Shown here: piece after piece, positions 7,726 to 41,449 of the stretch
Layout: every line of letters starts with the position of its first letter
How positions within the stretch are numbered: the stretch's first letter is position 1
Virus record (IMG/VR): IMGVR_UViG_3300035670_000474
Coordinates: 1-42,349 of that record
Source: a virus
Direction: 5' to 3' (one strand)
DNA: 42,349 bases
Position numbers and translations under genes: made by a program
The notes under the pieces: model-generated
Told to the model about the DNA's origin: nothing
Seen by the model: the letters and a program-made list of their open reading frames with translations, nothing else
The model's database searches: none

Positions 7726-9411
<1,686 letters not shown>

Positions 9412-34941: not shown

Positions 34942-35168
34942 GTCACGTTCAAAATGCCCTTGACGTCTTCGCTCGCATTATGGGCGAGCTAGAGCCGCAA
35001 AACTCGTGGGTCGGTTTCATCGAGGAAGACGATCGGCTTAATGGGCCTGGGGACGCCGCCGCCCCTGTAGGCGTGGACGATTCCGGCCCCGTGAGCGACA
35101 ACTTGGATTCGATCATCGATTGGTTTTCGTCCCGGCGTGACCAAGACGACTTCCAGAAGGCCGCGTAG
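34938..35168 (+). CDS. Last early protein, overlapping integrase
   Basis: The 76-residue acidic protein begins MSHVQNALDVFARIMGELEP and ends IIDWFSSRRDQDDFQKAA. The GTG is coupled to its upstream neighbour by GTGA. It overlaps the oppositely directed integrase gene by 180 bases, an unusually long overlap. Either both frames are used or one is extended by chance. Function unknown. Confidence 0.5.
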   Translation: MSHVQNALDVFARIMGELEPQNSWVGFIEEDDRLNGPGDAAAPVGVDDSGPVSDNLDSIIDWFSSRRDQDDFQKAA

Positions 35169-36410
35169 AAGAGCGTTTTTATGGTTTGCGCTCAGTTTCG
35201 GCCATTCAGTTACAAGGCGCTTGGTTTCGGTGCGGTCGGTTCCGGCGAGCGCGTTAAGTTCGGCGCGGGCTTTATCGACGGCTTGCCTTCTGATAGTTGC
35301 GCCTTCGTTGAATCGGTCGGCTCCGACGTCGGCTGCGCTGACGGCTTGGAGGTAGGTTCCGAGTTCGGTTTCGGCGTGAGCGAGTGTTTCGCGGGCGGCG
35401 TTGACGGTTTGGGTGTTGTTGGTTGGTTGGGCGGCGAATCGTCGCATTTCGTTGAGCGCGATTTCTTCTACGAGGGCGTCGGTTTTGGCGAGGTCGATTG
35501 CGGCGGGTGCTTCGCAGGTTCCCGCAGAGTGTCGTTTGCGGCACCGGTAGTAGACGTACCTGCCTTTTTCGCTGGTTGCCTTGATCATTACGTGGCCGCA
35601 CCCGGCGCACCTAATGATTCCGGCGAGGAGGCTTGGTGGCCGGTTGGGGCGGGGTTTGCTGGTTCCTTCGCGGGTTTGGGCGGCGTTGAACTCGGCTTCG
35701 GTGACGATGGGGGGGTGCGCTTCGGGGTTGGTGTGTTTGCCGACGCTGAGTTCTCCGAGATAGACGCGGTTGCGGAGGAGGTTTCGTACGCCGCTGGGGG
35801 TCATTTGGAGGCGTTCGCTGAGTGTGCCGGTTGCGGCTCCGTTGGCGAAGTCTCGGAAGGTTTGGCGGATCAGTTCGGCGTCTTGGTTGGGGGTGAGGCG
35901 TCGGGTTTGGGGGTCGCGGTCGTAGCCCCTGGGGGTTTGGCGGCGTTGCCAGATTCCGCGTTGGGTGGCGGAAGCTCTGAGTTCGTCGAAGCGTTCCCGG
36001 TAGAGATCGAGTTCGTGTTCGGCTATGGCGGCGAGCATTGTTCGGGTGAGGCGTCCGGCGGGTGTCGATGTGTCGATGTTTTCGTTGACGGCGACGACTT
36101 GCCCTCCGGCTTGTTCGATGCGGTCCCACGTTTTGAGAAGGTGGCTGACGCTGCGGCTTGCTCGGCTGAGGTAGGCGACGACCAAGCCCCGGTATTGGCC
36201 TTGTTCGATGCCTTCGATGGCTTGGTTGAGGATTGGGCGGTTGGTGTCCCCGCCGCTTCGATCGAGTTCGGGGGTGAGGATCTGGACGGGTTCGTTACGG
36301 GCGTTCGCCCACGCCTGTATCGTCGCGGCTTGATCTTCGGGGCTGCGGAAACTGTCCCCGCCGCGCTCTCCGACGAACGAGACTCTTACGTAACCGGCCC
36401 AGGGTTTCAC
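34989..36410 (-). CDS. int: Large serine integrase
   Basis: The 473-residue serine recombinase starts MKPWAGYVRVSFVGERGG, with probable catalytic Ser11 in YVRVS. The resolvase core includes FRSPEDQAATIQAWA, then VVAYLSRASRS and TPAGRLTRTMLAAIAEHE. The recombinase domain has RQTPRGYDRDPQTRRLTPNQ. A zinc ribbon follows (IRCAGCGHVMI, then YYRCRKRHSAGTCEAP), with a coiled-coil region after it. It integrates phage DNA by attP x attB. GTG 36410 is preferred over TTG 36473 because the putative attP lies at 36431-36472, immediately upstream. No strong ribosome site precedes either. Confidence 0.92.
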   Translation of the reverse strand: MKPWAGYVRVSFVGERGGDSFRSPEDQAATIQAWANARNEPVQILTPELDRSGGDTNRPILNQAIEGIEQGQYRGLVVAYLSRASRSVSHLLKTWDRIEQAGGQVVAVNENIDTSTPAGRLTRTMLAAIAEHELDLYRERFDELRASATQRGIWQRRQTPRGYDRDPQTRRLTPNQDAELIRQTFRDFANGAATGTLSERLQMTPSGVRNLLRNRVYLGELSVGKHTNPEAHPPIVTEAEFNAAQTREGTSKPRPNRPPSLLAGIIRCAGCGHVMIKATSEKGRYVYYRCRKRHSAGTCEAPAAIDLAKTDALVEEIALNEMRRFAAQPTNNTQTVNAARETLAHAETELGTYLQAVSAADVGADRFNEGATIRRQAVDKARAELNALAGTDRTETKRLVTEWPKLSANHKNALLRGLLEVVLVTPGRKPIDDRIQVVAHGAGIVHAYRGGGVPRPIKPIVFLDETDPRVLRL

Positions 36411-36430
36411 GCTGGGGAAGATAACGACTA

Positions 36431-36472
36431 TGCGCAATCGAATCTCAAAACACCACGAGACGCGATTGCGCA
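36431..36472. repeat. attP: Putative attP of the serine integrase
   Basis: Perfect ten-base arms TGCGCAATCG (36431-36440) and CGATTGCGCA (36463-36472) face each other across 22 bases. Inner TCTC (36443-36446) and GAGA (36457-36460) share the same centre. The centre is CA at 36451-36452, inside AAAACACCAC. PhiC31 attP has the same arrangement of inverted arms around an asymmetric core next to the integrase gene (established knowledge). A third direct copy lies at 36490-36499. Position and symmetry make this the best attP candidate. Confidence 0.75.
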
Positions 36473-36487
36473 AGAAGGGGAGATCAG

Positions 36488-36781
36488 GTGCGCAATCGCA
36501 AGGTAGAGCGCAAAGAGAAGGCGGTCCGTGAGAAGTATCTTCCGGTCCGCTCTGATAACGCGCTGGTTGGCAAGTACGGGTTCGTTCCGGGCGCGGAGGG
36601 ATTCGATTTAGAACACGCCCAGGCGCTTTGTGCGCCGGTCTCAGGCGATCAGCCGGTGTTTGTTCCGGTTCCGGTTGCGGTCAGGCGTTGGGTTGTTGAG
36701 AACGAGGTTGAAGCGACCGCTTCTGAAGCGCAGGTTGCGTTTCAGCTTTGGCTTCAGGATCAGGAGGGGGCGGCGGCGTGA
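36488..36781 (+). CDS. Hypothetical protein starting in third att-like repeat
   Basis: The 97-residue protein starts MRNRKVERKEKAVREKYLPV, with a basic N-terminus and mixed C-terminal half including PVFVPVPVAVRRWVVENE. GTG and its first codons coincide with the third TGCGCAATCG repeat. Thus an attP or integrase-binding motif also encodes its N-terminus. It could be an integration regulator, but this is only suggested by position. No family recognised. Confidence 0.55.
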   Translation: MRNRKVERKEKAVREKYLPVRSDNALVGKYGFVPGAEGFDLEHAQALCAPVSGDQPVFVPVPVAVRRWVVENEVEATASEAQVAFQLWLQDQEGAAA

Positions 36782-36951: not shown

Positions 36952-37340
36952 TTGCTACCGCTTTTGCTGCCGCTGCTCTCGTTACCGGCTCGTCAACGAT
37001 GTATCACTCGTGCGACGGGTCTACGACTATGACGGCGAGCGGCAGGACCGTTCAGGTTGGTTACGCGGCGAATAATTGGCTGCCGTTTGGAACGTGGGTC
37101 GAAATGAAGCGTCCTTCGCGTGTTCAGGGCTTGCGTTATTACCGAATTTTCGACCGGGGAGGCCCAGGTTTTGAACTTGATTTTTGGGCGCGTGACTGCG
37201 GAACGATGGGGGCGTGGGGTCGCCGCACCGTCACGTTCCGCGTCCTGAGCAAGCGGGATCTGTTTCGGGGTAAGCCGATTGGTGGTTGGCGGGTTGTGTC
37301 GGCTCGTCGGGGCGGAAAGCTCGTATGGCGGAACCGATGA
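36948..37340 (+). CDS. Secreted 3D/double-psi barrel protein
   Basis: The 130-residue protein has a hydrophobic N-terminus resembling a short signal peptide (MIATAFAAAALVTGSSTMYH). A 3D/RlpA-like double-psi barrel follows: TASGRTVQVGYAANNWLPFG, YYRIFDRGGPG and LDFWARDCGTMGAWGRR, with the ordered Asp residues of the 3D motif. Such domains occur in peptidoglycan-active proteins. Because it lies beside the integrase instead of the lysis genes, it may be an infection or lysogenic-conversion factor. GTG overlaps the previous stop. Confidence 0.75.
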   Translation: MIATAFAAAALVTGSSTMYHSCDGSTTMTASGRTVQVGYAANNWLPFGTWVEMKRPSRVQGLRYYRIFDRGGPGFELDFWARDCGTMGAWGRRTVTFRVLSKRDLFRGKPIGGWRVVSARRGGKLVWRNR

Positions 37341-37888
37341 ATAATTCCGACGTCCGTTGCGTCTACGTGATTGGCACGCTTGACGGAAGCGCCGTAAAAA
37401 TTGGGGTCGCTAACGATCCTGAAAAACGGCTCCGAGAGCTTCAGGTTGGCAATCACGAAGAACTTGTCCTTGTCGAAACAATGTGGGGCAAGGGGGATCC
37501 CAGGCCGTTAGAGGCCGGGATTCACGAGCGACTTTCCGATTTTCATATTCGCGGCGAATGGTTCGCGGCATACCCGACCCTTCCGCTGCTCGGCATTGGG
37601 ACGAACTTTCCTTTTATGGAGCGAGCGTTCGGAAAGCAAACGACGCAGAACGTTGATCCCGTCGCTGCCAAAGTTGCCTATGAAAAATCAGAACGGCGGC
37701 GTATAAACGATAAGCGCCAGTTGGCGCGGGCGAAGAACCATATTTGGAAGCTTGCTCGCAAGGTTCGATTTTTGACGAAAGAGGTTGAAGCTTTGCGTCA
37801 GGTTTCCGAACCCTGGCAGGAAGTTTCAACAGAGGCCGAACTTGACGCTTTAGAAGTCAGTCTCATTCCTGATTGGTTGAACTCGTGA
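37337..37888 (+). CDS. GIY-YIG-like (T5orf172) protein
   Basis: The 183-residue protein begins with a T5orf172/GIY-YIG-like fold: CVYVIGTLDGSAVKIGVAND (about residues 8-27), PEKRLRELQVGN and PRPLEAGIHERLSDFHIRGE with WF following. These positions match the nuclease superfamily, although catalytic activity is not established. A C-terminal coiled coil follows. It may cut or bind DNA. ATG overlaps the preceding stop as ATGA. Confidence 0.75.
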   Translation: MNNSDVRCVYVIGTLDGSAVKIGVANDPEKRLRELQVGNHEELVLVETMWGKGDPRPLEAGIHERLSDFHIRGEWFAAYPTLPLLGIGTNFPFMERAFGKQTTQNVDPVAAKVAYEKSERRRINDKRQLARAKNHIWKLARKVRFLTKEVEALRQVSEPWQEVSTEAELDALEVSLIPDWLNS

Positions 37889-40833: not shown

Positions 40834-41449
40834 GGAAGCGTTCGGCAAGCTCGATGTTGCGAAGTGCCGGATCAGGGGTTACACCGAAGCGCAGATCGCT
40901 AACGGGGTTTGGTCGCAGGTAACGCAGGGTGCGCGGGAGCGCGGCTTTACGCACTTGACGTTGATTAGTGACGACGCGGTTGTGCCTGCCCGCAGCTTGC
41001 GTCTTGTGCTGGATCACGCGGCACTTAACGAGGATCGCGTCACGACGGGCTGGTGTAACGTAAACGAGCTTGATCAGACGGTGAATCTCAGTACGGAGCC
41101 GCTTACTTCTCCTTACCCGTACGAGACTTCTTATGCGCTGCCTTTGTGGCGCGATGTTCTTGTTGGACCCCCGGTTCAGCGCACCTACTTTACGGGCTTC
41201 GCTCTAACTACCGCGAGCCTAGAGATATGGGAGCGGTTCCCTTACCAAGTTTACGGTGAGGGCTTCGCCGCTGACTACTCAATGAGCCGGAGGCTTTGGG
41301 GCGCGGGAATCAAGATCGATGCTTTGCGTGACGCCTTCGTTCTTCATTTGAAAGCCTCGCAGGCTGGCAGCCCCGATATTGAGGAGCGTCGTCTTCTCAT
41401 TGGGGAGATAGAGCCGGGGCTGGTTTGGGAACTCCCGCACGATGCCTGA
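40784..41449 (+). CDS. Glycosyltransferase-like protein, third copy
   Basis: The 221-residue protein resembles a compact GT-A glycosyltransferase. It starts MNPLLVILNPRKIQIVEEAF, has FTHLTLISDDAVVPA (about residues 55-69) with an acidic pair in the DxD position, and later YFTGFALTTASLEIWERFPY and EGFAADYSMSRRLW. The last matches acceptor-site acidic/aromatic patterns in related enzymes. The donor and acceptor are unknown. ATG 40784 has AAGGAAGG upstream; TTG 40775 is possible. It is far from the other two GT genes but may act on the same virion proteins or host surface. Confidence 0.65.
   Translation: MNPLLVILNPRKIQIVEEAFGKLDVAKCRIRGYTEAQIANGVWSQVTQGARERGFTHLTLISDDAVVPARSLRLVLDHAALNEDRVTTGWCNVNELDQTVNLSTEPLTSPYPYETSYALPLWRDVLVGPPVQRTYFTGFALTTASLEIWERFPYQVYGEGFAADYSMSRRLWGAGIKIDALRDAFVLHLKASQAGSPDIEERRLLIGEIEPGLVWELPHDA

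Follow-up and report, generated by a model that had tools for sequence, protein, structure and literature searches.

Evidence for the probable attP site of an uncultivated phage, a 42-bp dyad upstream of its large serine integrase gene

Three copies of a ten-base word lie immediately upstream of an integrase gene in the genome of an environmental phage, and the question raised by this locus was whether they mark the attachment site (attP) of the phage or belong to some other regulatory element. The window, that is, the whole stretch of DNA that was analysed, was the 42,349-bp virus record IMGVR_UViG_3300035670_000474. Terminase, portal, capsid, tail sheath and baseplate genes were all present in it, and this gene complement, the tail sheath and baseplate genes included, indicated a contractile-tailed phage; the top matches of its portal protein were phages of actinobacteria (34–39%). 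A collagen-like, repetitive tail fibre gene was observed at 7726–9411, directly after the major head protein, and matched many PHROG tail-fibre families. A single near-identical record was found in IMG/VR (G001, its integrase locus being L002), which is listed there as linear. The ends of G001 comprise a 135-bp direct repeat (C1:1–135 and 40931–41065; one mismatch, 99% identical), as expected of a complete circular-mapping genome, and its first bases link one end of the window to the other across approximately 18 nt. Therefore, the phage genome was considered to be circular-mapping, and the window to be essentially complete and unintegrated.

The principal features of the locus were as follows:

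34989–36410, minus strand: large serine integrase gene, 473 aa, GTG start (Pfam PF00239, PF07508 and PF13408; PHROG 95 integrase)

36431–36472, no strand assigned: probable attP core, a 42-bp imperfect dyad recognised by its symmetry, its rank in the genome and the controls, and identical in G001

36451–36452, plus strand: predicted 2-bp crossover dinucleotide, CA (TG on the integrase strand), placed at the centre of symmetry following the 2-bp rule of known serine integrases (PMC3556126)

36488–36781, plus strand: divergent 97-aa ORF with a GTG start at 36488, on the far side of the putative attP, in a phiJoe-like gene order

The catalytic, recombinase and zinc-ribbon domains identified by Pfam placed the integrase among the large serine integrases, and both Ser11 and the zinc cysteines (C268, C271, C290 and C299) were invariant across seven aligned relatives. 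Its best matches in the phage collection had only 23–26% identity, approximately, over the full length, and no match there exceeded 60%, so that by sequence similarity it was not a phiC31-type enzyme; nor was a close relative found among GTDB contigs, plasmids and phages. The integrase frame (34992–36680, minus strand) continued without a stop through the putative attP as far as 36680, a feature shared with several relatives, and an upstream TTG (36473) would give a 494-aa form reading through the attachment site. On the opposite strand, an open frame of 441 aa (35181–36506, plus strand) overlapped both the integrase gene and the putative attP without a Pfam match; this was probably a by-product of high G+C codon use. 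A protein with a MUG113/T5orf172 (GIY-YIG-like) domain was encoded close to the integrase module, at 37286–37888.

The three exact repeats reported by the initial annotation, in +, - and + orientations, were confirmed: TGCGCAATCG occurred at 36431–36440 (+), 36463–36472 (-) and 36489–36498 (+) and nowhere else in the 42,349-bp genome. By chance, 0.18 copies were expected, and three were reached in no shuffle. Copies 1 and 2 formed the outer arms of the dyad, at positions 12–21 from its centre and with a 22-bp spacer between them, while the TCTC/GAGA inner arms occupied positions 6–9; the centre of the dyad fell on the CA dinucleotide, between 36451 and 36452, again as originally described. Taken together, the arms at 36431–36446 and 36457–36472 were 88% complementary around the 10-nt AAAACACCAC. 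The element was thereby an imperfect inverted repeat within the 40–50 bp range, approximately, with a non-palindromic 2-bp core (CA), and it stood beside the integrase gene of a complete, unintegrated phage genome; its edge was 20 nt upstream of the integrase GTG start and its centre at -41. The functional site probably extends a further 2–5 bp on each side. Exact 10-bp inverted arms with a spacer of 12–30 nt were expected 1.35 times per 42 kb in shuffled sequence, and the only cases in the window were those at this locus. When all 42,299 even-centred positions in the genome were ranked by a run-weighted dyad score, the dyad of copies 1 and 2 was first and that of copies 2 and 3 was second; the score of the former was equalled by one of 5,000 local shuffles. 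No terminator was found at the dyad site. Copies 1 and 2 were unchanged in G001; the identity of the element in that genome was rejected as proof of function, because the integrase gene itself contained a longer identical run (215 versus 117 nt).

These details fitted published descriptions, and were counted toward an attP reading accordingly. The attP sites of serine integrases are 45–50 bp long, their inverted repeats flank a spacer of approximately 20 bp, and they lie beside the integrase gene (PMC5311408); that of A118 is a 50-bp imperfect palindrome with a 2-bp crossover (PMC3556126), and in the LI integrase structure the recombinase domain corresponds to the inner half-site and the zinc domain to its outer part (PMC3783163).

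As a control, the regions upstream of integrases whose attP is known (phiC31, phiJoe, phiBT1 and Bxb1) were scanned for dyads in the same way, as was A118. The known attP was the best dyad for phiC31 (centre at -59), phiJoe (-43, the annotated position) and phiBT1 (-80, which falls within the annotated site), while the Bxb1 attP (-25) was the second-best, a stronger dyad being present at -112. The dyad in the window (-41) outscored the sites of all four phages. In the A118 record, no significant dyad was detected upstream of the integrase gene; the Listeria A118/LI integrase has its enzyme class in common with that of the window. The closest layout was that of phiJoe (a Streptomyces phage, KX815338), where attP is 18 bp upstream of the serine integrase gene, compared with 20 bp for the dyad edge here, where the dyad centres likewise differ by little (-43 versus -41), and where a small divergent gene beyond attP encodes the direction factor, in the same gene order as the 97-aa ORF of the window (PMC5311408). 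However, the site sequence, the phage and the direction-factor candidate were unrelated to those of phiJoe, and only the window had an extra repeat copy inside the divergent gene. The attP sites of phiC31 and phiBT1 resembled the dyad in having inverted outer arms of 9–10 bp, a spacer of approximately 20 bp and a position upstream of the integrase gene, but differed in sequence and centre; a phiC31-type RDF gene was not noticed in the window. Bxb1 attP shared the concentric inner and outer arms, the 2-bp centre and a location just upstream of the integrase gene, although its outer arms were at positions 18–24 rather than 12–21. The initial description of the site as phiC31-like was therefore apt for its anatomy, but not for the integrase sequence.

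Related integrases were encoded at 28 IMG/VR loci, and their maps fell into two classes. In the first (the window, G001, G002, G006, G009 and G012), attP was interior and the 5' side of the integrase gene continued into phage genes toward the terminase. In the second, the contig ended 0–380 bp beyond the integrase 5' end, and TerL was 6.7–10 kb from the opposite contig end; this was the case for G008 (55% integrase identity), G010 (36–37%) and G011 (approximately 30%), and a prophage opened at attP would show this gene order. In G008 and G011 the contig ends coincided with gene boundaries, and trimming by the provirus caller may account for them. At L046 (IMGVR_UViG_3300012940_001326, 1–160), the integrase gene (29%) started approximately 12 bp from the start of a divergently read efp (elongation factor P), placing a host junction at the integrase 5' end; the 5' end of efp is probably where a prophage joins host DNA. 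In G010 (C1:37700–38095, L055), the integrase gene abutted an open frame (NEHYWTYYADSATFRGIPIAGEAGYH...) that had no match in the Pfam, phage or plasmid collections, and which is probably a host gene at attL; when the two ends of G010 were compared for matching attL and attR, only chance words of 9–11 bp were returned. G014 was rejected as a lysogen, since its ends overlap and it is circular. The relatives opened at the integrase 5' end did not include this phage, and yielded no attL/attR pairs; similarly, GTDB contigs, plasmids, phages and IMG/VR produced no lysogen or host attB for it.

Dyads were also seen upstream of some of the related integrase genes. The intact genome of G009 (55% integrase identity) contained an interior imperfect dyad, which had its centre near -36 and CACGGCGA/TCGCCGTG and CCCGT/ACGGG as its arms; it was read by eye, and its outer arms were offset by 1 nt. 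The dyads of L042, L043, L047 and L048 lay at -41 to -44 and had a conserved core, CTGAACTGATT, in common. Several distant relatives (L007–L010 and G006) had no significant upstream dyad and, given the same result for A118, an upstream dyad is not universal; following shuffle tests, the proposition of clear dyads in all distant relatives was abandoned.

Based on its position, its symmetry, the positive controls and the map of relatives, the 42-bp dyad at 36431–36472 is very probably the attP of the phage's own large serine integrase, which upholds the candidate put forward initially. The arrangement of integrase gene and attP is ordinary for the serine integrase class; the site itself is a new example. 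By analogy with known serine integrases, two integrase subunits would bind the two inverted half-sites of attP, with the recombinase domain on the inner arms and the linker and zinc ribbon on the outer arms. The attP-bound subunits would then form a complex with a dimer bound at a host attB, which would have little beyond the central 2 bp in common with attP. Cutting at CA/TG, rotation and joining would leave the integrase gene beside attL or attR. The attB, the CA/TG crossover position, and binding and cutting by the integrase are accordingly putative elements of this model. A direction factor would be required for excision; the divergent 97-aa ORF is a candidate for this role, by position only. 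This ORF displayed no similarity to phiJoe gp52 or TP901-1 Xis that would place it among the small direction factors, and no family match in Pfam or PHROG; its predicted structure was discarded because the confidence was too low (mean pLDDT 64).

Two further features concern the start of the 97-aa ORF:

36489–36498, plus strand: third copy of TGCGCAATCG, overlapping the GTG start and codons 2–4 of the 97-aa ORF

36462–36499, plus strand: possible RNA hairpin of copies 2 and 3, with an 11-bp perfect stem and a 16-nt loop holding a ribosome-binding-like stretch, AAGGGGAG

The third copy is probably real, rather than a product of chance, and it does encode the beginning of the adjacent protein, as had been noted. 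In G001 it contained one mismatch (AAT to AAA), resulting in N3K, the only amino-acid change in the first 23 residues of the ORF; its polarity was opposite to that of the attP half-site pair. The initial annotation had suggested that this copy may bind the integrase or its direction factor, as an extra site next to attP. Chance would seldom place a third exact copy this near the dyad (within 17 bp; approximately 1e-3 for ±100 bp), but its polarity is the reverse of that of an attP half-site partner, and it is mutated in G001. Accessory sites are not required by known serine integrases, whose direction factors have the integrase itself as their binding partner (PMC5311408); the suggestion was unsupported, and such a site is unlikely. 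It is more doubtful that the third copy is a control site, through which attP-bound integrase or the hairpin of copies 2 and 3 would silence the neighbouring gene until integration splits attP.

Slightly less credible again was the interpretation of the dyad as a repressor or activator operator for divergent promoters of the integrase and 97-aa genes, with attP located elsewhere. The dyad does sit between two divergent genes, and its half-site word occurs in three copies and includes an internal TGCGCA palindrome. However, no further exact copy was present in the genome, and one-mismatch copies were dispersed and did not cluster at other promoters; in its length, 2-bp centre and inner and outer arms the dyad fits serine attP sites, and the map of relatives places recombination at the dyad. 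The least probable explanation was an RNA element in which hairpins of copies 1 and 2 and of copies 2 and 3 alternate, switching translation of the 97-aa ORF: both folds are stable and mutually exclusive, and the 11 perfect pairs of the latter stem enclose the ORF start, but an RNA fold is to be expected of any DNA dyad, so that energy is not independent evidence, G001 loses one pair of that stem, uncompensated, through an amino-acid-changing substitution, and no promoter-like site was found upstream. RNA fold z-scores were likewise rejected as independent evidence, since they follow from the dyad itself. A translational hairpin formed by copies 2 and 3 is possible.

With the dyad as attP, the locus provides a ready integrase-attP pair from an uncultivated phage, whose integrase shares only approximately 25% identity with those of phage databases. 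Such a pair could be used for orthogonal recombination as soon as its attB has been identified. The locus also offers, in the 97-aa ORF, a testable candidate for a direction factor, proteins of this class being difficult to recognise from sequence. If the third copy were indeed a control site, then the attachment site itself would sense the lysogenic state, and the gene that it silenced would possibly be the direction factor.
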